This document shows positions 35,929 to 46,271 of a stretch of 64,000 nucleotides of DNA, piece by piece. Position 1 is the stretch's first letter, and each line of letters begins with the position of its first letter. Source of the stretch: Roseivirga sp. UBA6061 (GTDB lineage Bacteria > Bacteroidota > Bacteroidia > Cytophagales > Cyclobacteriaceae). The translations under genes and the position numbers were made by a program. The notes beneath the pieces are model-generated. The model had not been told where the DNA came from. It saw nothing but the letters and a program-made list of their open reading frames with translations, and did not search any database. Where the stretch lies: the NCBI GenBank assembly GCA_002427745.1, contig DIYF01000147.1, forward strand, positions 62,001-126,000. The letters run 5' to 3'.

Positions 35929-38040
35929 TTAGTTAAAAGCAATCTCATCGATAAACAACCAGGCAGGAGTGTCCTTGCCTGGATGCCATTCAGGAAGATT
36001 ACCGTAATTTTTAGCCCTGATTTGTAAATGCTTCAATTTTTGAGTGTCAAAGGCCAGCTCATGAATGATCATATGTTTGGGCTCCGGACCTTCAGGTCTT
36101 TCGAGATCCAGGGTCTGCAATTTGGTCAGCTTGCCCGGCTCTGCGCCTCCCCATATTTCCAGTGAGGTAGGCGGAAAAATCCAGGAGCCGATATCATCCA
36201 GTGTACTGATAAATACCGTACTGATTTCGCGACTTTGTTTCAATTCCACATCCACCACCAGATCATCCCCATTAAAACCAAGCCATTCACCATCCCGGAA
36301 ATTCTCGCTGCCCTTTTTCAGGTCGAACAGTGTGGTGACACCCTTGGCCTTGTAGCTTCCCTTGGGGTCATGTCTGAGTGTGGTTTGTCGCAGGCCACTA
36401 TCTACTACTTTGATAAATACCTGCTCAGTAACAGGGCTGTCTTCCCAGCCTTCTTTCTTCGCAAAAACACTGAGTTTGCCACTTTCCGTAAGCCTGATCC
36501 GGCCGTTTTCCAGGGCCTGAGTCACCCCGTCTCCCAACTGATAAAACAGGTTGGTTTCTGATAGATTGTATGAAACCTCAACCGTCAGCTCCTGATCAAA
36601 GAAAGTGGATTCATACTCCAGTTTTGGGGCCGCCAGTTCAGCCCTGGTGAACTCAGAATCCTCAGGTAGCCCACCATCGATCTTTACGGCAGGGTGGTCA
36701 CTTTGAAGCGCCAGGAGCTCTTCTCCGCTCAGCTCAGTTTGCCAGAGGTAGAGCTGGTTGAGCTTTGGTAGTTTAGCCATTTGAGAGGCTCCTTTGGCGG
36801 TGATTTTGGTGCCATAGAGGTTGAGGTAAGCAAGATGCTCAAGCTTACGGATGGCCGAAACCATATTGTCATCCGTTTCAGTATTGTCGAGGTACAGTCG
36901 GTGAAGGTTTTCGTACCGGGCTACTTCTTTGAGAATGGCTTTGTCGATGCGACTTCCCCCCAGGTCGAGTGTATAAATCTGCTCCCGTATTTTCCTGAGC
37001 TTTTTGAGCTGATCAGTATCAAGTGCTTTCTTTTGTCCGAGGTACACTTCCAGATAGGGCTTATCAGGTTCTATTTGCTTGATGTTGAAGCCGCTGTTCA
37101 TAAGAGAGCTTATCAGGTCATCATCGGCAAAGTCAATATCAATTTCTTCTTCCGGAGCGAAATAGCTGGCCAGTACGGGCTGAATGGCATCGCCTTTATC
37201 GATTTCTTTAACAAGGGAGGTGAAGGAAGCCCCTGTTTCTACCCACCAGGAGAGCAGTTTCACTTCTTCATTACTAAGCTGATTTTTGCCCTTGGGCGGC
37301 ATATGCAGCTTATCCTCCATCGGCAGAAGTAAATGACTGATAAGCTTGCTGTTGATCAGGTCACCCGGAGTCAGAATAGAGCCTGATTCTCCTCCTTTAA
37401 GAATACCTTCCTCTGTATCCAATAGCAATCCCCCCTTTAACTTATTGGGGTTGTGACAGCTGGTGCATTTAACATCGAGTACGGGCTGCACCACCTGGGT
37501 AAAGACGGGCGCCTCGGTATTAAGGCTCAGTGTTTCCGGTGTATCAAAAACCTCAGTCAGAAAATCCTCACCATGTGTTAAAGAAGCACCATAGTGACCA
37601 GTGATAATCAACAGGACGACTAAGACCGTATAAAGGGGTAATACCGCATTGGACAGACGTTCTTTTAAATCAATCAGCAATACCACAATCAGTGAAGTGG
37701 CCAGCCCGAACCATTTGTGAAAGACAAAGCCGTCCCCCGCATAGCCACCATTTACAGAGAGTAAAAAACCGGCAATGGCCGATATGACAGCGGTGTAAGC
37801 ACCCAGCCATAAGAGCAATTCTGCTCCCCTGGCAAAATCCTTTTGACCTCTTTTGGCCAGTAACTCAAAAAGCAGGGCCATCATCAGTAGTCCTATGGGA
37901 AAGTGAAGGACCAGAGGATGGAGCCTCCCTACAAACTGAAATATGGCAGCCAGTTCCTGTATCGGGACCAGAAATAGTATGACCAGCAGCAGGTTGAGTG
38001 CCCAGAGTAAGCGAGTAAGTGTTTTCCTGGAAATAGGCAT
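35929..38040 (-). CDS. Membrane-anchored cytochrome c with LRR and discoidin-like C-terminus
   Basis: 703 residues. The N-terminal 150 residues have five or six membrane segments including LHPLVLHFPIGLLM, as in DUF2231-type proteins. A planctomycete-type cytochrome c domain follows with haem site CTSCH and GGLLLDTEEGILKGGESG. Then come leucine-rich repeats (LHRLYLDNTETDD, LAYLNLYGTKIT), a chitobiase/hexosaminidase C-terminal-like domain and a discoidin-like tail (FRDGEWLGFNGDD, WHPGKDTPAWLFIDEI). The tail is homologous to that of the next gene. It is the last gene of the PSD1 cluster, and may be its membrane electron carrier. Role inferred. Confidence 0.82.
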   Translation of the reverse strand: MPISRKTLTRLLWALNLLLVILFLVPIQELAAIFQFVGRLHPLVLHFPIGLLMMALLFELLAKRGQKDFARGAELLLWLGAYTAVISAIAGFLLSVNGGYAGDGFVFHKWFGLATSLIVVLLIDLKERLSNAVLPLYTVLVVLLIITGHYGASLTHGEDFLTEVFDTPETLSLNTEAPVFTQVVQPVLDVKCTSCHNPNKLKGGLLLDTEEGILKGGESGSILTPGDLINSKLISHLLLPMEDKLHMPPKGKNQLSNEEVKLLSWWVETGASFTSLVKEIDKGDAIQPVLASYFAPEEEIDIDFADDDLISSLMNSGFNIKQIEPDKPYLEVYLGQKKALDTDQLKKLRKIREQIYTLDLGGSRIDKAILKEVARYENLHRLYLDNTETDDNMVSAIRKLEHLAYLNLYGTKITAKGASQMAKLPKLNQLYLWQTELSGEELLALQSDHPAVKIDGGLPEDSEFTRAELAAPKLEYESTFFDQELTVEVSYNLSETNLFYQLGDGVTQALENGRIRLTESGKLSVFAKKEGWEDSPVTEQVFIKVVDSGLRQTTLRHDPKGSYKAKGVTTLFDLKKGSENFRDGEWLGFNGDDLVVDVELKQSREISTVFISTLDDIGSWIFPPTSLEIWGGAEPGKLTKLQTLDLERPEGPEPKHMIIHELAFDTQKLKHLQIRAKNYGNLPEWHPGKDTPAWLFIDEIAFN

Positions 38041-38041
38041 A

Positions 38042-38830
38042 CTATCTGATAATAATTTCGTCTAAAAATACCCAGCCGGCATTGCCCTTACCCGGATGCC
38101 AGTCCGGTAGTGCGGGGAGAGGCTGGATGACCAGTTTTACATAGCGGCAACGGGCGTTCTCTGTCTTGATATGGTAGTAAACTTTTCCGGAAGGGTCCTC
38201 CTGCTTCTGTTCGTTGATCTGTAGCTCGGGCACTTCTGTATACTCCCGGCCATCTTCTGACAGTTTACCGGCAATCGTTGTGGGTGGCATGATCCAGGCA
38301 CCGGCAGCTGTCAGTGTGCTCACCAGTATTTCCTCAACTTTTTTGACTTTTCCCAGGTCCAGTGTAATAGTGATCGGGCCTTTATTGTAACCAATCCAGT
38401 GGCCATCCCGGAAGTTCAGAGAACCGGCCTGCTGATCAATGAGGGTTTGTCCACCCTGGCCGGCATAGGAAGGGCCGGGGCCGGGACTCAGTTCTATCGA
38501 TTTGATGGCCTTACCGAGTTTGTGTACTTCTGTGGTAATGGTTTCAGAGGGACGAAAGCCGGTTTTAAAGGCTTTCACCTTCACTGTACTACTCTTTTTG
38601 ACAGTCAGCTTTTTTGTGTAAAGTGCTGAGGCTTCAGTAGGCTCGGTTCCATCGAGCGTGTAGCGGAGACTGGCGCCTTCCAGCCTGAAGTCAAAGGTAA
38701 TGTCAGCTTTCTTTGTGAAGAACCCACCACCATCAATCCTGACCAGAGGTTTGCTCAACTGATACTCCTGTGCTGAAAGAAAACTGCCAAACAACAGCAG
38801 GCATGATATGAAGCATATTTTCGATCTCAT
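38042..38830 (-). CDS. Secreted chitobiase-C/discoidin-like domain protein
   Basis: 262 residues with a Sec signal (about 1-20). Residues 40-105 resemble the chitobiase/beta-hexosaminidase C-terminal domain (FRLEGASLRYTLDGTEPTEAS). The rest is a discoidin/F5-8C-like domain with FRDGHWIGYNKG, ILVSTLTAAGAWIMPPT and the terminal WHPGKGNAGWVFLDEI. The same tail ends the 703-residue cytochrome gene two bases away, so it arose by duplication. Likely a carbohydrate-binding accessory of the PSD1 cluster. Confidence 0.8.
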   Translation of the reverse strand: MRSKICFISCLLLFGSFLSAQEYQLSKPLVRIDGGGFFTKKADITFDFRLEGASLRYTLDGTEPTEASALYTKKLTVKKSSTVKVKAFKTGFRPSETITTEVHKLGKAIKSIELSPGPGPSYAGQGGQTLIDQQAGSLNFRDGHWIGYNKGPITITLDLGKVKKVEEILVSTLTAAGAWIMPPTTIAGKLSEDGREYTEVPELQINEQKQEDPSGKVYYHIKTENARCRYVKLVIQPLPALPDWHPGKGNAGWVFLDEIIIR

Positions 38831-39861
38831 ATCCTGTTCAGCTTATAAGGATAAACATTGCCGGAATTCCACTGGGCCACATACATGTTTTCGTCATCAT
38901 CAATGCAAACATCATGAGGGTAAATAAAGACCTTCATGGTCTGATACATTTCTTCAGGTGTCGAGCCGGTATAGGTGGGGGTACTTCCCGCCAGGTTGGA
39001 GATAACTTTGTTGTTTTTATTCAGAATGGTAACAAAGCCTGAAGGGTCATCGCCATAGGCCCGTGATTTGAGTACGGCAGCATACAGGTAGTCGCCATGT
39101 ATTACAGGGCGGCAAACATGAGCTCCGGGTAGCGGAATAGTTTCCAGGTATTCACCGGAAAGTGAGTAGCGCTTGAAGGCATTCTCTTCCCTGGCAGACA
39201 CAACAAGGCAGGGATTAGCCGCATCACGGGAATCCAGACAGATGCCGTGGGCGTTTTTGAGATTTTCAGGTCCGGTGCCCCGACCTCCGAAGCTTCTGAT
39301 ATAGCTACCGTTGGATGAGTACTGTGTGATCCATTGTTCTCCATAGCCATCGGCCACATAGATATCCCCGTTCGGGCCAATGGCTACTTCTGTTGGGATA
39401 TACTGTTCCGCTTTTTGATAGTGACCGGACTCTTTGGGATAGTCCAGTATCATCACCACTTTCCCCTCAATAGTGGTTTTAATGACCTGGTGTCGATTGT
39501 TGTCAGAGATGAAAAGGAAGTCTTCTCCGTTTTCTTTGGAGAGGGTGAGCCCATGAGCTCCGGGGTATTCAGTACCCCAGGTTTTGAGTAGTTTTCCTGA
39601 CTTATCGTACACCAATACGTTATTCTTCGTCTCGTTGGTGAGCAGAAGTATCCTTCCCTGTGAGTCCTGCACCATTTCGTGGCAGTCCTTGACGGGGAAC
39701 TGGTTTGGATTGAGGTTGCCCCAATTCACATCGAGGTGATACTGATGAGAGTTATGTCCCAGCACGAGGTCTTCTGTGCGTTCCGGTATCAACAGTGGCG
39801 GCATAGTGGCCAGTCCGGTAGCCGCGATCAGGGATTTTTGTACAAAGGTTCTTCTATCCAT
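38827..39861 (-). CDS. NHL-repeat propeller protein with Tat-like signal
   Basis: 344 residues. The N-terminus DRRTFVQKSLIAAT is a twin-arginine signal. The body has NHL-type blades (EVAIGPNGDIYVADGYGEQWITQYSSNGSYIRSFGG, PHDVCIDDDENMYVAQWNSGNVYPYKL). It is 6 bases-class spaced: its stop overlaps the next gene by four bases and its start lies four bases from the DUF1501 gene. A periplasmic enzyme or scaffold of the PSD1 cluster. Folded export with a cofactor is suggested by the Tat signal; the function is unknown. Confidence 0.8.
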   Translation of the reverse strand: MDRRTFVQKSLIAATGLATMPPLLIPERTEDLVLGHNSHQYHLDVNWGNLNPNQFPVKDCHEMVQDSQGRILLLTNETKNNVLVYDKSGKLLKTWGTEYPGAHGLTLSKENGEDFLFISDNNRHQVIKTTIEGKVVMILDYPKESGHYQKAEQYIPTEVAIGPNGDIYVADGYGEQWITQYSSNGSYIRSFGGRGTGPENLKNAHGICLDSRDAANPCLVVSAREENAFKRYSLSGEYLETIPLPGAHVCRPVIHGDYLYAAVLKSRAYGDDPSGFVTILNKNNKVISNLAGSTPTYTGSTPEEMYQTMKVFIYPHDVCIDDDENMYVAQWNSGNVYPYKLNRI

Positions 39862-39864
39862 CTA

Positions 39865-41316
39865 TCAGGCCAGAATATCGTGAATGACACTACCACTTAC
39901 ATCAGTCAGACGGAATCTCCTGCCCTGGTATTTGTAAATGAGTTTTTCGTGATCTATACCTAACAAATGGAGTATAGTGGCCTGGAAGTCGTGCACATGT
40001 ACCGGGTCTTTGGCAATGTTATAGCCGAACTCATCGGTTTCTCCATAAGTCATACCGGCTTTTACACCGCCACCAGCCATCCAGATGCTAAAGCAGCGCG
40101 GATGGTGATCACGGCCATAATTGTTTTTGGTCAAAGCTCCCTGTGAGTAGTTGGTACGGCCAAACTCTCCACCCCAAATCACCAGGGTATCATCCAGCAT
40201 GCCCCGTTGTTTCAGGTCCATGATGAGGGCTGCGGAAGCCTGGTCTACATCTTTTGCCTGCTTTTGAATAGCCCCGGGAAGATTATCGTGCTGATCCCAG
40301 CCCATATGGTAGAGTTGCACAAATCGTACATCGCGCTCCGCCAGCCTGCGTGCCAGCAAACAATTGGCAGCAAAAGAACCAGGTCTGGCTACATCCGCTC
40401 CGTACATACGATAAATATGGTCAGGTTCTTTAGAGATGTCCATGGTCTCCGGCACACTGGTTTGCATGCGATAAGCCAGCTCGTACTGAGCTACCCGGGC
40501 ATTGATTTCCGGATCTCCAAACTCCTGTGAGTGGATAGAGTTGAGTTGAGAAAGGTGATCGAGCATATTTCTGCGATCCATCTTTGACATACCCTTAGGG
40601 TCTTTCAGGTAAAGCACCGGATCTTTTCCTGAACGGAATTGTACCCCCTGATGTACTGAGTTCAGGAAGCCATTGCCCCAAAGCCTTGAATAAAGGGGCT
40701 GGCCCTGTGGTCTACCACTGCCCCGGGATAACAGCACTGAAAAGGCCGGTAAGTTTTCATTATCACTTCCCAGGCCGTAGCTGAGCCAGGAGCCCATGCT
40801 GGGACGACCAGGCTGCTGAGAACCTGTCTGAAAAAAGGTAATGGCAGGGTCATGGTTGATGGCCTCCGTATGCACACTTTTGATAAAGCACAGCTCGTCT
40901 ACCACCTTGGAGGTGTAGGGCATAATGTCACTGACCCAGGCCCTGCTGTTACCATATTGCTTAAAGTCGAATAGTGAACCCGCCAGGGGAAATGACTTTT
41001 GCCCGGATGTCATTCCGGTAAGTCGCTGACCATTTCTGACAGAGTCAGGTAGTTCCTGTCCCACCATTTCACGGAGCTTCGGCTTATAGTCGAAAAGCTC
41101 AAGCTGAGAAGGGCCGCCACTCTGGAAGAGATAAATGACCCGCTTGGCCTTAGGAGCAATATGCCTGAAATCTTCAGGTCCCGGACGATTACCGGCCAGT
41201 AAACTCGTGGGGTTCAATAATGAGGCAAGGCCTAAGCCCCCCAGGCCCAGACTGACTTTGGAAAGAAAGTGCCTCCGGTTAAGATGATAATGGTAGTCCT
41301 GTTCTTCTTTGTGCAT
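39865..41316 (-). CDS. DUF1501 protein with Tat signal
   Basis: 483 residues. The N-terminus NRRHFLSKVSLGLGGLGLASLL is a twin-arginine signal (R14-R15). The body matches DUF1501: VIYLFQSGGPSQLELFDYKP, NGQRLTGMTSGQ, DIMPYTSKVVDELCFIKSVHTEAINHDPA, YHMGWDQHDNLP, LVIWGGEFGRTNYSQG and GRDHHPRCFSIWMAGGGVKAG. DUF1501 proteins belong to the alkaline-phosphatase-like fold and nearly always sit next to DUF1549/DUF1553 genes, as here (3 bases apart). Their substrate is not established. Confidence 0.93.
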   Translation of the reverse strand: MHKEEQDYHYHLNRRHFLSKVSLGLGGLGLASLLNPTSLLAGNRPGPEDFRHIAPKAKRVIYLFQSGGPSQLELFDYKPKLREMVGQELPDSVRNGQRLTGMTSGQKSFPLAGSLFDFKQYGNSRAWVSDIMPYTSKVVDELCFIKSVHTEAINHDPAITFFQTGSQQPGRPSMGSWLSYGLGSDNENLPAFSVLLSRGSGRPQGQPLYSRLWGNGFLNSVHQGVQFRSGKDPVLYLKDPKGMSKMDRRNMLDHLSQLNSIHSQEFGDPEINARVAQYELAYRMQTSVPETMDISKEPDHIYRMYGADVARPGSFAANCLLARRLAERDVRFVQLYHMGWDQHDNLPGAIQKQAKDVDQASAALIMDLKQRGMLDDTLVIWGGEFGRTNYSQGALTKNNYGRDHHPRCFSIWMAGGGVKAGMTYGETDEFGYNIAKDPVHVHDFQATILHLLGIDHEKLIYKYQGRRFRLTDVSGSVIHDILA

Positions 41317-41318
41317 GA

Positions 41319-43667
41319 TCAGGTTTTTGAAATGGCCTCGTCCAGATTAAAAATGGTATTGATCACCGACATGAAAGCAGCAGCTTCCGGTGTCTGATTC
41401 TCTTGTGGGTATTGTCCCACATCCAGGTATTCTCTGGCCTGGTCGGGAGCTTCGGTAAATCGCGTCTGTTCTGCTTCCAAAAAGCTCTCCAGCACGGTCT
41501 TTTCTTCTTCAGACGGGTTTCTGCCCAGGATTTTTTCAAAAGCAAAGATCAGGCGGTCCTGGTCGTTTTGATGTGCCGACAGTGCTTTATAAGCCAAAAC
41601 ACGGGAAGCCTCCAGTACCTGAGGGTCATTCATCATAACCAGCGCCTGGAGTGGCGTATTTGTTTTTTGCCGATCTACCTCGCATAAATCACGTGAGGCA
41701 GCATCAAAGGTCATCATAGCAGGTGGCGGTACGGTACGTTTCCAGAAGGTGTATAGACTTCTGCGATACAGTGCATCTCCGCTATCGGTCTGGTAGCTGG
41801 TAAGCCCTTGTCCGGAGGTGGTTTCTGCCCAGAGCCCTTCCGGCTGGTATGGTTTTACACTGGGGCCTCCGACTTCTTTATTCAGCAGCCCGCTGGCGGC
41901 CAGTACATTGTCGCGGATCATCTCGAATGACATGCGGTAGCGTGGTCCACGGGTCAGCCATTTGTTGGTGGGGTCATTTTCCAGAAGCGCTTCACTCACT
42001 CTGGAGCTTTGCTGATAGGTAGCTGACAGGAGAATCTGCTTCTGCAATCTCTGGATGTCCCAGCCGGATTCCACGAAATCATAGGACAGGTATTCGAGCA
42101 GTTCGGGGTGAGAAGGCAGGTTGCCCTGGTTGCCAAAGTCGGCTGGTGTATCTACCAGTCCCGTACCAAAGAAAGACTGCCAGATACGGTTGACTGTGAC
42201 GCGTGCTGTAAGAGGATTGTCTTTTGAAAAGAGCCATTTGGCCAGCCCCATGCGGTCTTGCGATAGCTTATCACCAAAGGGGCTGATGGCTGCCGGTGTG
42301 GAGGGAGACACCCGGGCTCCTCTCGCATCATACTGTCCCCTGTTGAGAACGTAGGTGGGTCTGCGCCTTACAGAGTCCTTCATAACCATAACACTCAGGT
42401 CATCACCGTTGAAATCCGAGGCATTGACGAAGCTGAGAATACCTTTCAGGTCCTGCTCAGTGATTTTGATTTTAGGCTCAGGAATTTCACCATATTCAAT
42501 GCGACCCTTTTCAGGTACAGAGTTGAAAAAGGAGAAAACGCTGAAGTAGTCCTTCTGCGAAATAGGATCGTATTTATGGTCGTGACATTTAGCACATTCC
42601 AGTGTCAGTCCGAGGAAAGCTTTACCGAAGGTGTTGGCCCGGTCAGTGACATATTCCACACGGTATTCTTCAGATATAACGCCACCTTCCTGGGTGATTT
42701 TGTGGTTACGATTAAAACCCGTGGCCAGAATCTGTTCTTTCGTTGGGTTGGGAAGCAAGTCTCCCGCGAGTTGCCAGGTCACAAAGGTATTATAGGGCAT
42801 ATTTTCATTGAAGGCCTTGATTACCCAGTCACGCCAGGGCCACATGATGCGCTCCAGGTCATCCTGGTAACCGTGGGTGTCAGAGTAGCGGGCCAGGTCC
42901 AGCCAGCCGGTAGCCATGTGTTCGCCATAGGCAGGTGATGCCATCAGCGCATCAACCGCTTTCTCAAAAGCCTGGTCAGTGTTGTCTGCCATAAATGAAG
43001 CTCTGAGTTCATCTGAGGGGGGTAGTCCGGTCAGGTCAAAGCTGGCTCTGCGGAGAAGTCTTTCTCTGCTGGCTTTTTCAGAAGGCGTAAAACCTTTCTC
43101 CTCAAACTTCCTGGCTACAAAACGATCTATGTTGTTCTGAGTCCAGTCTGTTCGCCTTGGTGTGGCAGGCTCTTCAACCGGAATAAACGACCAGTGCTTT
43201 TTCCATTTAGCGCCCTGTACAATCCATCTGGACAGGAGTTTTTTTTCGTTTTCCGACAGTGTCAGGTTGGAGGCAGGAGGTGGCATTACTTCATCAGGGT
43301 TATCTGAAAAGATGCGGTGAATTACCTCTGATTTTTCGGTATTCCCTGCTACTATACCGAAGACATCCGGTCTGTCCTTCATGGCTTTAAAAGCCCCTTC
43401 CTCTGTGTCGAGTCTGTATCCTGATTCACGTTTGTTGGCATCAGGCCCGTGACAGGCAAAGCAGCGGTCTGAGAGCAATGGCCTCACATGTAAATTGAAG
43501 TCTACCTGTTCTGGTAAATAGTCGGTCCCGGCCCTGGCGGTCATCCCGGGAGGAAGACTGTTCTTCTCCTTTTGACCGCAGGATTTCAGGATCACCAATG
43601 AGATGAAAAGCAGTGCCACCATGCCGGCATGCCTGAGTGTAATTCCAGATGTTTTGACTTTTGCCAT
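41319..43667 (-). CDS. PSD1-type cytochrome c / DUF1549-DUF1553 lipoprotein
   Basis: 782 residues. Lipoprotein signal ending LVILKSC (C30). An N-terminal planctomycete-type cytochrome c domain has haem site CFACH, RESGYRLDTEEGAFK and MPPPASNLTLSENEKKLLSRWIVQGA. Then DUF1549 (WTQNNIDRFVARKFEEKGFTPSEKA, LARYSDTHGYQDDLER) with an additional CAKCH site, and DUF1553 (NPLTARVTVNRIWQSFFG, NKWLTRGPRYRMSFEMIRDNVLAASGLLNKEVGGPSVKPYQPEGLW). The order is typical of planctomycete PSD1 proteins. It is the first gene of the cluster and pairs with the DUF1501 gene. Redox role inferred. Confidence 0.93.
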   Translation of the reverse strand: MAKVKTSGITLRHAGMVALLFISLVILKSCGQKEKNSLPPGMTARAGTDYLPEQVDFNLHVRPLLSDRCFACHGPDANKRESGYRLDTEEGAFKAMKDRPDVFGIVAGNTEKSEVIHRIFSDNPDEVMPPPASNLTLSENEKKLLSRWIVQGAKWKKHWSFIPVEEPATPRRTDWTQNNIDRFVARKFEEKGFTPSEKASRERLLRRASFDLTGLPPSDELRASFMADNTDQAFEKAVDALMASPAYGEHMATGWLDLARYSDTHGYQDDLERIMWPWRDWVIKAFNENMPYNTFVTWQLAGDLLPNPTKEQILATGFNRNHKITQEGGVISEEYRVEYVTDRANTFGKAFLGLTLECAKCHDHKYDPISQKDYFSVFSFFNSVPEKGRIEYGEIPEPKIKITEQDLKGILSFVNASDFNGDDLSVMVMKDSVRRRPTYVLNRGQYDARGARVSPSTPAAISPFGDKLSQDRMGLAKWLFSKDNPLTARVTVNRIWQSFFGTGLVDTPADFGNQGNLPSHPELLEYLSYDFVESGWDIQRLQKQILLSATYQQSSRVSEALLENDPTNKWLTRGPRYRMSFEMIRDNVLAASGLLNKEVGGPSVKPYQPEGLWAETTSGQGLTSYQTDSGDALYRRSLYTFWKRTVPPPAMMTFDAASRDLCEVDRQKTNTPLQALVMMNDPQVLEASRVLAYKALSAHQNDQDRLIFAFEKILGRNPSEEEKTVLESFLEAEQTRFTEAPDQAREYLDVGQYPQENQTPEAAAFMSVINTIFNLDEAISKT

Positions 43668-43715
43668 AGCTGTTCCTGAATTTAATTATTCAAGAGCATC
43701 TAATGAAGGAGAAAA

Positions 43716-43747
43716 GGTTTAGCGGGAGGGTTAATGAATGGGTTAAT
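43716..43747. promoter_or_regulatory. GGTTAAT direct repeats between the Kelch-BTAD regulator and the PSD1 cluster
   Basis: GGTTAAT at 43729-43735 and 43741-43747, 12 bases apart, preceded by the related GGTTTA at 43716-43721. On the transcribed strand they read ATTAACC. They lie in the 99-base gap before the PSD1 operon and directly after the regulator gene. SARP/OmpR-type wHTH proteins bind direct repeats, so this is a candidate site, on limited evidence. Confidence 0.35.
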
Positions 43748-43766
43748 TCGGGAGGTCAGGGTGAAA

Positions 43767-46271
43767 TTATTTCAGAATATCATCGAATTCGACCGGGTAA
43801 GGCTCATTGTAGAGGGTTCTGTACCTCTCAGTGAATTGCTCATAGGCAGACTTGGCATTGCCTACTTTCTTAAGGGCTGTAAGGCTCAAAAGTAGCTGGT
43901 GAAGGGCTTCGTCATGAACCGGATCTATGTTCAACACAGCTCTTGAAACATCTACCACCTGAGCCCAGTCTTTTTCGGCCTTCGCTGCTTCTGCACCAGA
44001 CATGAGGAATTGAATCAGCTTGAAGTGGATGTCAACCTTGAATGCATCCAGCCATTCATAAGAGGTAGTGGGTAACAGCATCCCGGTATTAGCAATGGTA
44101 ATGACGGTGTCCAGGTCATTTTGTCGGATGGCCACACGGGCATGGTACAAGTCGCAATCAGTTACGCTTTGAAAGATCACCGCCCATCGGTTTTCCCTGA
44201 AGCTTATTTCCACACCTGTGAGAGGAGCCAGCGCCTGTCTGAGTTTCTGCAGGTTTACACCACGGTTATTTTTGGCACTTGAAGGCGAGGCATCAGGCCA
44301 GAGCACCTCCGTTAGCTGTTGCGTAGATATTCCCTGTTTATCAGTGAGTGTGTGCAGTAAGATCAGCAGAAAAAGCTCCTTCAGCTTGGGAGAAAGCTTC
44401 GCTGTCAGGTTGTTGCCTTCCGCATCCATGATTTTGAATTCACCCATCAGGGATATGGCATGTACAGTTGGGGCATCAGTGGCTGGGGGTTCAGGTGCAG
44501 ACCTGGTTTCAGAAACCGGAACCAGTGGTGTTCTTCGCTTTCTTAATCCCAGTATCAGCAGGCCGATAAACAAGGTAGCTCCGGGAAGAATCAGTTGCCA
44601 GGGAATGCCCGCGGATTCAACTTCTGAAGCGGTATAGGCTACCGGGGGAAAGGAAATAGTATGAATTTTTACCTCGGCATTGTTGGGGTCCGTATTGATC
44701 CGTAATACAGATACCAGTTCTTTGGTCTGGGCGGCATAAAAGAGAAAGAGGTTATAGTCCCCGATGTTCCGGATCTCAAAAGGCAGCTTTTCTTCGAGAG
44801 AGATTACTTCCACTTCAGGCCGGTTAATGCTGATTTTCAGAAGCTCCAGCGCTTTGCCGCCATCCAGATAATCATGACCAATGGCATAAATGGCAGAATC
44901 TTCACGGTGCAGTACCATGCTGGAAGAGGGGAGGTAAGGCGTCTCTCCGGGGGCTCTTCCCCAGAGTTTTTTCAGCGTGCTGTCATTCAGGTTGAGTAAG
45001 TACAGATCGCTGAGGTTATCGAAACCTGATTCCTGTTCTCCGGACTCATTGCCATAGCCCCCATAGATATAGTATTCTCCTTTGTTGTAGCCTTCTGTGG
45101 CACCCAGCATAAAGCGTGGCTCAGGTATATCCCCTTTCAATGGTATTTCTACCCATTTTTGAGTCCCGGGATTGAATTCCAGCAGTTTATTGCGGGCCTC
45201 AAAAAAGCCATAGCCTGCAAAGATCATGGGGTTTCCATTCAGAGCGTTTTCCAGTGGTGCATGTTGCCAGATGTAAATAGGAGGGGCTTCCTGATCTTCC
45301 AGTCCTTCCCAGCTTTCGGTGCTGGTGTTAAAGCGATAGCCATGTTCCGGGCCAAGATCATAGCCGTATAACTCCTGATGCTGAGTGCTGTACACGGCTG
45401 CCTGTGTCCCCTGATCTTTGGGAAAGCTGTTTTGAGGAGTGAACTCCACCTTGGTGCGTGTGGTCAGGTTATACACTGTGATCAGCTTTTCTTCCACGAT
45501 GTGCACTTCATCTCTTGTTTTGTCGAAGGCAATACCGGGTATCGGTTGAGCCGGCTGTGTATACTGTTGCTGCCAGCGCTGATGGCCGTCAATGATCCAC
45601 TCGGGGTATTGCGCTTCGATTCGGTAGTCACCTTCTTCAGAAGCCAGCACAGACCCTGTTTCTTTTTCCAGAGACCAGCTATAACTTTTATTGTCAACCC
45701 GAAGGCTAAGGTCCTTGATGGCAAAACGAGGGGTAGCTACTGATGAAGGCAGACTGTAAGGGCTCCTGCCAAAAACAGGATTCAGCGCTGTTATAGACTT
45801 CAACAGGGGGCTTTGGAAGCTTGCTCTCTCCTTTCCTATGGTCAGTGTCAGATTTTGGTCAGATTTATTCAGGCTTACCGTAGTCTTCAGCCAGTTATTC
45901 CTGACTATTTGATTGGCTGGAATAATCAGTTGAGCTCCCTGTTCCTGACCGTTGATGGTAAGTTTGAACACGCCTCCGGTTACATCACCCTCTCCGGGTT
46001 TATAGATCAGGTCTATGCGGTCTGTAGCATCCGGGGAAGAGAAGCGAAGGATATAGCCAAGCTCGGTAGCGCGCCAGAATGATAAGTCAAAGGAGACCTC
46101 TGTTTGATTCTCAAAAGCCAGCGGTGTTGAGGGGCTGATGTGAAGTGAGGAGCGCGTGGCAATAGGGCTTTCATAAGACCGGAAAAGCAGGCCTCTGTCG
46201 TTTTGAGCCTTTGCCACAGCGTGAAGACTGACCCAAAGCAAAAGTATAAGACCTGACCGTGCACAGCGCAT
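43767..46271 (-). CDS. Membrane-spanning regulator: Kelch propeller outside, wHTH-BTAD inside
   Basis: 834 residues. A Sec signal (about 1-22) is followed by a LamG-like sandwich (30-200) and a Kelch-type propeller (about 240-545; FAGYGFFEARNKLLEFNPGTQKW, YYIYGGYGNESG). One membrane segment at 557-577 ends in LRKRR. Then comes an OmpR/SARP-type winged helix (about 605-700; LSPKLKELFLLILLH, LTEVLWPD, RGVNLQKLRQAL) and a BTAD-type helical repeat domain (705-834; SAYEQFTERYRTLY). No receiver domain is present. It is a one-component sensor with the propeller outside and the DNA-binding part inside. It lies immediately upstream of the PSD1 cluster and probably controls it (inference). Confidence 0.85.
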   Translation of the reverse strand: MRCARSGLILLLWVSLHAVAKAQNDRGLLFRSYESPIATRSSLHISPSTPLAFENQTEVSFDLSFWRATELGYILRFSSPDATDRIDLIYKPGEGDVTGGVFKLTINGQEQGAQLIIPANQIVRNNWLKTTVSLNKSDQNLTLTIGKERASFQSPLLKSITALNPVFGRSPYSLPSSVATPRFAIKDLSLRVDNKSYSWSLEKETGSVLASEEGDYRIEAQYPEWIIDGHQRWQQQYTQPAQPIPGIAFDKTRDEVHIVEEKLITVYNLTTRTKVEFTPQNSFPKDQGTQAAVYSTQHQELYGYDLGPEHGYRFNTSTESWEGLEDQEAPPIYIWQHAPLENALNGNPMIFAGYGFFEARNKLLEFNPGTQKWVEIPLKGDIPEPRFMLGATEGYNKGEYYIYGGYGNESGEQESGFDNLSDLYLLNLNDSTLKKLWGRAPGETPYLPSSSMVLHREDSAIYAIGHDYLDGGKALELLKISINRPEVEVISLEEKLPFEIRNIGDYNLFLFYAAQTKELVSVLRINTDPNNAEVKIHTISFPPVAYTASEVESAGIPWQLILPGATLFIGLLILGLRKRRTPLVPVSETRSAPEPPATDAPTVHAISLMGEFKIMDAEGNNLTAKLSPKLKELFLLILLHTLTDKQGISTQQLTEVLWPDASPSSAKNNRGVNLQKLRQALAPLTGVEISFRENRWAVIFQSVTDCDLYHARVAIRQNDLDTVITIANTGMLLPTTSYEWLDAFKVDIHFKLIQFLMSGAEAAKAEKDWAQVVDVSRAVLNIDPVHDEALHQLLLSLTALKKVGNAKSAYEQFTERYRTLYNEPYPVEFDDILK

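Follow-up and report, generated by a model that had tools for sequence, protein, structure and literature searches.

In the window analysed here, a stretch of 64,000 nucleotides from Roseivirga sp. UBA6061, positions 35929-46271 are filled by six successive minus-strand genes: a large membrane regulator (REG), a PSD1 gene, a DUF1501 gene, an NHL propeller gene, a CHB/discoidin gene and a membrane cytochrome gene (Table 1). We consider it likely that REG activates the five genes behind it through an array of direct repeats located in the REG-PSD1 gap. The gene order, the domains, the array and the co-occurrence of these elements were computed, and from them we infer binding, activation as against repression, and the ligand.

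Layout of the cluster and its component proteins

The five genes behind REG are separated by 2 (PSD1-DUF1501), 3 (DUF1501-NHL), -4 (NHL-CHB) and 1 (CHB-membrane cytochrome) bases, and REG lies 99 bases upstream of PSD1. A chance arrangement is made unlikely by this tight packing together with its conservation in relatives. An earlier note on this DNA had described five genes a few bases apart behind a Kelch-type membrane regulator, with two Tat signals, and both descriptions were confirmed, the twin-arginine motifs being NRRHFLSK in DUF1501 and DRRTFVQK in NHL. Its count of two cytochrome domains was corrected to three CxxCH motifs, two of them in the PSD1 protein and one in the membrane cytochrome.

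Table 1. Positions of the cluster genes and of the candidate operator in the window
Feature	Position	Strand	Description or basis
REG, 834 aa	43767..46271	-	predicted signal peptide, N-terminal beta-rich region, Kelch propeller
REG, further domains of the same gene product	43767..46271	-	one TM helix, putative cytoplasmic wHTH + BTAD-like domain
Candidate operator: TTAACCC / TTAACCC / CTAAACC direct repeats, period 12 bp	43716..43746	-	sequence
PSD1 protein, 782 aa	41319..43667	-	Pfam, motifs, model
DUF1501 protein, 483 aa, Tat motif	39865..41316	-	Pfam, motif; alkaline-phosphatase-superfamily fold
NHL propeller protein, 344 aa, Tat motif	38827..39861	-	Pfam, motif
CHB_HEX_C_1 + F5/8 type C (discoidin) protein, 262 aa	38042..38830	-	Pfam
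Membrane cytochrome, 703 aa	35929..38040	-	DUF2231, PSCyt1, LRR-like stretch, discoidin-like C-terminus

The PSD1 gene product matches PSCyt1 (59 bits), PSCyt2 (290 bits) and PSD1 (343 bits), all over the Pfam cut-off, and contains two c-type heme motifs (CFACH 69 and CAKCH 358) and a lipobox-like LKSC. The NHL match of the propeller protein reaches 38 bits, and the CHB protein has Pfam matches to CHB_HEX_C_1 (58 bits) and F5/8 type C (30 bits). The latter protein is paralogous to the C-terminal portion of the membrane cytochrome (26% identity, E 1e-31), in which DUF2231 and PSCyt1 are over the Pfam cut-off and LRR_8 just under it; five hydrophobic segments (DUF2231) and the heme motif CTSCH 192 were also observed there.

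The DUF1501 protein (PF07394, 539.6 bits, over the cut-off) was assigned to the alkaline phosphatase superfamily by its fold. Four of its residues, D341, H343, E384 and F385, are kept in all 40 aligned rows (38 distinct) and Q65 in 34 of them. The Glu-Phe appears to fall at the sulfatase Asp-His in a weak profile alignment. Gln/Met and Glu-Phe stand where the metal ligands of a canonical two-metal site would be expected, with the alkaline-phosphatase fold kept.

The immediate neighbours of the cluster are a lipid A acyltransferase gene (Pfam) and a 186-aa gene without assignment; two further genes nearby are, we presume from naming by eye, prfC and dnaK. No SusC/SusD pair, the mark of a polysaccharide utilisation locus, was found among the immediate neighbours. 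The 8.18-Mb draft genome contains one PSCyt2 gene and one REG match in total.

In REG itself, Kelch_3 is over the Pfam cut-off and the remaining Kelch models are below theirs. BTAD is also below cut-off (15.6 against 22.1 bits), although it appears at E<=0.1 in five of 17 aligned family members, and the wHTH has no Pfam match. A single hydrophobic segment (555-578) is followed by RKRR, and this layout can be aligned end to end across 22 sequences. From the sequence we interpret the C-terminal part as a winged helix with a helical, BTAD-like domain after it, and the N-terminus as a probable signal peptide. One relative (P0249) is named SARP family transcriptional activator by JGI. No paper on such a Kelch/BTAD-type membrane regulator in Bacteroidota was found by full-text search of an open-licence library.

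The direct-repeat array between REG and PSD1

In the window the array reads TTAACCC-N5-TTAACCC-N5-CTAAACC. It came to light when the regions preceding PSD1 in the seven Roseivirga loci were laid out side by side, the REG-bearing ones showing three direct repeats at a 12-bp period. Within the window, pairs with at most two mismatches match three times against 0.37 expected, and two of the three matches are this array. The exact pair, TTAACCCN5TTAACCC, occurs once in the whole genome, in the REG-PSD1 gap. Elsewhere among the 19 genomes searched, G159 has one copy (located in this gap), G162 has two (of which one lies in this gap) and G153 has one; the pair is absent from the four Roseivirga genomes with REG-less clusters (G149, G157, G152 and G161) and from G072, G016 and G035. 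As the reversed control occurs three times in the 19 whole genomes and the pair five times, the evidence lies in the place of the pair and not in its rarity.

The shorter TAACCC core was found in all four REG-linked clusters, including that of G072 outside the genus, and in none of the four REG-less Roseivirga clusters. In G072 the gap contains TGTAACCC-ATCT-TGTAACCC, with core and period as in Roseivirga. A scan of 87 loci, 1.51 Mb in all, gave five copies of TAACCC-N6-TAACCC: one in each of the four REG-PSD1 gaps and one in L108, at a distance from REG. Sixty permuted words of the same letters gave a mean of 0.52 in these loci, with one (CCAATC) likewise reaching five, and TAACCC at other spacings (8 to 25) gave zero to two matches. 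A triple-repeat test returned p values of 0.004, 0.010 and 0.004 for the REG-bearing Roseivirga gaps and 0.018 for G072, against 0.35-0.60 for the four REG-less Roseivirga gaps.

We compared 45 PSD1 upstream regions, one gene (that of G007) being counted twice. The best match has no mismatch in G000 (the present genome), G159, G162 and G072, one in G016 and two in G090 and G035; in the remaining 38 regions it has three to six. Random 330-base pieces of the same loci, with the true sites kept in, have at most one mismatch in 15 of 20000 cases. Three of the five array-bearing clusters come from one genus and are therefore not independent. In G016 the nearest unlinked relative of REG is on a contig other than that of PSD1, so that the array there is not explained by an adjoining REG; any of the other wHTH relatives in this genome (L121, L126, L127) might read it.

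In the gap of G159 (L168, 10538-10806), about 170 nt are inserted between the array and PSD1. The ends of this insert are partly inverted (CCCGGAATACGCATT ... ATGCATAATCCGGG), as in a small mobile element.

Distribution of the regulator, the cluster and related arrays

Among 19 Roseivirga genomes, DUF1501 orthologues with at least 88% identity were found in seven and REG in three (G000, G159 and G162), in each of which it lies directly before PSD1. All seven have the cluster flanked by the acyltransferase gene on one side and by prfC (named by eye) on the other. In the REG-less genomes the REG slot is occupied by a DUF2807 gene (G149, G152), by nothing (G157) or by other genes (G161). REG thus belongs with the cluster within a single lineage, and even in that lineage it can be absent, since it heads three of the seven Roseivirga clusters. 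Public data yielded 16 close REG proteins (52-98% identity), nine of which apparently have a PSD1 or DUF1501 match in the same assembly; a tenth, P0243, is linked to the cluster in L164. NHL in L252 and CHB in L168 are present, although an overlap filter had masked them. The genomes with the closest REGs (G000 and G159) measure 8.2 and 8.6 Mb and the other 17 of the genus 2.1-5.8 Mb. In two REG-less Roseivirga loci (L171, L172) the cluster is preceded by two tandem lipid A acyltransferase-like genes.

Outside the genus, 148 genomes of the family were drawn, with PSCyt2 in 78 and REG relatives in 27 (the present genome included). The six window proteins were searched by tblastn against 40 REG loci and 20 PSD1 loci, the latter taken from the best PSD1 matches. 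REG adjoins PSD1 in G072 alone among these; all six genes are present there in the same order, with REG 29-30% identical, and a GH10 gene adjoins REG. DUF1501 is present in all of the 20 other PSD1 loci (truncated at the end of a contig in one of them), whereas 16 have the membrane cytochrome, three have NHL and none has REG. NHL on its own is common, occurring in 143 of 390 genomes of the order at E<=1e-40, and of 20 NHL loci 12 have PSD1 and none a REG match. REG matches were found in 34 of the 390 order genomes. Of 345 phylum genomes, eight have REG (E<=1e-30) and 44 PSCyt2; both occur together in the present genome and in G191 only, where they are more than 500 kb apart. In G007 a 1319-aa HTCS gene precedes NHL-PSD1-DUF1501-cytochrome on the same strand, which is the slot of REG.

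The earlier note regarded REG as the cluster's own regulator and proposed linkage elsewhere as one test. The order in G072, the 12-bp array and the position directly before the cluster in all three REG-bearing Roseivirga genomes speak for ownership, but the linkage is narrow: four of the seven Roseivirga clusters and all 20 other PSD1 loci lack REG, and PSCyt2 matches are missing from six of the eight REG genomes of the phylum draw. The note took the cluster as the window's best candidate for an undescribed system, but clusters of this kind have been described before. PSD1-DUF1501 pairs are common and already in print, and in Verrucomicrobia PSCyt2 genes beside a gene family of no assigned role have been reported, with a proposed role in carbohydrate metabolism (PMC5615132).

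A tree built from 46 REG proteins places the REG of G072 with those of Roseivirga at weak support (86/64), and the REG of G016 (L093) is the next branch (97/95). A tree of the DNA-binding part alone, with its backbone not resolved, keeps the REG of G016 next (87/86) and leaves that of G072 without a resolved place. Among 42 proteins encoded 3' of REG on either strand we found GH92 (6), glutaminase A (5), Gfo/Idh/MocA (4), GH125 (2), GH95 (1) and 3-keto-disaccharide hydrolase (1); the 63 proteins encoded 5' of REG included TonB plug (9), GH92 (6) and SusD families of 6, 4 and 2, whose members may overlap. REG relatives thus often adjoin glycan genes (SusC/D, glycosidases), which fits glycan sensing, and the HTCS in G007 and the GH10 gene in G072 both fit a glycan-responsive cluster. 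The PSD1-triad neighbours (74 of 104 proteins scanned) show no glycan bias, with at most three of 74 per family among the 25 of 126 families listed. A 13-locus neighbour cluster around GH92 was discarded as an impure product of single linkage; its L092 member matched TIG and not GH92. Tandem or split REG-family genes were observed in G689, G802 and G639 (L268, L269, L270), with a stop inside one match in G639.

Similar arrays occur in other REG-family loci. We looked for TTAMCCC pairs of period 12 in the flanks of 40 further loci, a count that is partly circular because the word was picked after the TTACCCC loci were known. A pair with no more than one mismatch is present in four loci (the background averages 0.065 and never exceeds 1 in 200 draws), and one with no more than two in eight (background 1.0, never above 3), leaving 32 with no such pair; seven triples have at most five mismatches (background 0.2). 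No locus reached one mismatch or fewer at any other period from 8 to 16, and period 11 gave eight loci at two mismatches, five of them shared with period 12. Among the 28 Kelch-type loci (L093-L120), L115 alone has a pair with at most two mismatches.

A later set of 33 loci amounts to 28 new genes, as L185 duplicates L122, L193 duplicates L115, and the final 200 residues are the same within each of three pairs; most upstream flanks in this set are truncated. Period 12 gave three loci with at most one mismatch, namely L185 (the repeat of L122) and the new ones in G738 and G832; in the one-mismatch class, period 11 gave one (L256, through the same array) and the other seven periods none. At two mismatches period 12 (4) does not exceed periods 10 (7), 11 (4) or 13 (5), although six of the seven period-10 matches lie at 329-331 nt in related genomes and are not independent. 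Twelve wider regions, with four new genes (G601:C2, G689, G802, G639) of which two have arrays, revealed arrays in G802 (no mismatch, four units), G639 (two mismatches), G738 and G832 (one each). In these four genomes of other families the array lies 8-25 nt past the REG stop.

In L122, L126, L127 and L167, Gfo/Idh/MocA or 3-keto-disaccharide hydrolase genes follow the array, and the regulators contain a LamG domain with no Kelch match. Such LamG-bearing relatives are candidate regulators of extracytoplasmic 3-keto-sugar pathways. TTACCCC-like arrays were also seen in L123 and L125. After the array in G738, G832 and G639 there is an ORF of 39-53 codons with a zinc-ribbon-like CPHC...CKWC (L264, 9887-10033; L265, in the gap behind REG; L270, 10615-10734), which looks like a conserved microprotein. 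We lean somewhat towards a Bacteroidota-wide group of SARP-like one-component regulators that span the membrane, whose exported sensor can be exchanged (Kelch or LamG) and whose operator is portable and lies directly behind the regulator gene, made of three to four direct repeats of about TTAACCC/TTACCCC at a 12-bp period. These regulators would be plugged into PSD1 redox clusters, into Gfo/Idh/MocA and 3-keto-disaccharide-hydrolase operons, and into the zinc-ribbon microprotein.

Proposed mechanism, alternatives and known systems

REG would be a SARP-type one-component transcription factor spanning the inner membrane. Its exported N-terminal region and Kelch propeller would meet a signal in the periplasm, probably a glycan-derived compound, and its cytoplasmic wHTH-BTAD-like end would bind the 12-bp-period repeat, switching on PSD1-DUF1501-NHL-CHB-cytochrome. 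The products may form an extracytoplasmic redox module in which the di-heme lipoprotein PSD1, the Tat-exported DUF1501 protein and the propeller act on a substrate while electrons exit via the membrane cytochrome. As the earlier note proposed, the propeller may sense the substrate and the cluster may degrade it oxidatively.

REG could instead be a mere neighbour with another target, the array being inherited adjoining sequence with no role at PSD1. Its absence from four of the seven Roseivirga clusters at the same chromosomal site, and the fact that most of the examined REG relatives are not near PSD1, would fit this reading, but we think it unlikely: array, REG and PSD1 cluster occur together in all four linked cases, the array recurs in G072, and in G016 it precedes PSD1 with one mismatch although the REG relative is not adjacent. 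Quite improbable, in our judgement, is that the array is a promoter, a terminator or a mobile-element attachment site trailing REG-type genes. The terminator scan placed no hairpin over it, the exact pair has no second copy in the genome, the period comes close to a turn of DNA, and most of the cases read have a co-directional gene or a small ORF next. What such a site would explain is the position of the array, mostly 8-61 nt past the REG stop where it is found (exceptions are G072 at about 200 nt, L127 at 222 nt and L130 on the other side of REG), and the insertion beside it in G159.

A different question is what the cluster does. PSD1 and DUF1501 might serve envelope or redox maintenance and no catabolic purpose, which would be compatible with control by REG; we hold this as a tentative possibility. 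The discoidin and CHB modules, the GH10 gene by REG in G072, the HTCS in G007 and the ties of the regulator family to glycan loci weigh against it. Its support comes from the housekeeping genes that surround the cluster (the lipid A acyltransferase and, by eye, prfC and dnaK), from PSD1-triad neighbours that are unspecific and point to no consistent substrate, and from R. baltica, whose PSD1 gene RB10051 is treated under the common stress response (PMC2754498).

Control by REG, if correct, would add membrane-spanning SARP-type sensors to the known Bacteroidota routes of glycan sensing. Several phyla have PSCyt/PSD1 genes in abundance, and to our knowledge no reaction is known for them. Assays are hard without knowing the conditions under which the proteins are produced, and the regulator with its candidate operator offers a handle that makes this long-open function testable: once the signal that makes REG bind is found, the substrate class follows.

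Among known regulators, the HTCS of polysaccharide utilisation loci combine an exported propeller sensor with a path from signal to DNA in one protein. REG would share both features and an HTCS takes the same slot in G007, but neither REG nor the 17 aligned members gave a match to a histidine kinase or receiver domain at E<=0.1. CadC/ToxR-type one-component regulators also join a wHTH and a periplasmic sensor in one membrane protein, with the order reversed, the wHTH being C-terminal in REG. The SARP activators AfsR, ActII-ORF4, DnrI and PimR have an OmpR-type wHTH followed by a helical BTA domain (PMC10936776, PMC10972967), a layout that the putative C-terminal domains of REG would match. They bind two or three heptamer direct repeats upstream of their targets, 11 or 22 bp apart and often three heptamers with four-base spacers (PMC10936776, PMC10972967); the REG array has three repeats, to which binding is predicted. 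REG differs in its membrane span, its exported Kelch sensor, its occurrence in Bacteroidota and an array period of 12 bp against 10-11 bp, and it neighbours an extracytoplasmic redox cluster instead of antibiotic synthesis genes.

The PSCyt/PSD genes of Planctomycetes and Verrucomicrobia share with the Roseivirga cluster the same domains, a conserved neighbour and a proposed carbohydrate role (PMC5615132), to which the cluster adds a membrane cytochrome ending in a discoidin-like part, an NHL partner, an adjacent regulator and a candidate operator. The R. baltica PSD1 gene RB10051 likewise has its own proposed regulator, RB10049, an ECF sigma factor (PMC2754498), whereas REG would be a SARP-like membrane protein. 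The cluster thus belongs to a kind that is known but still lacks an explanation, and REG with its candidate operator would represent SARP-type control in a variant form.
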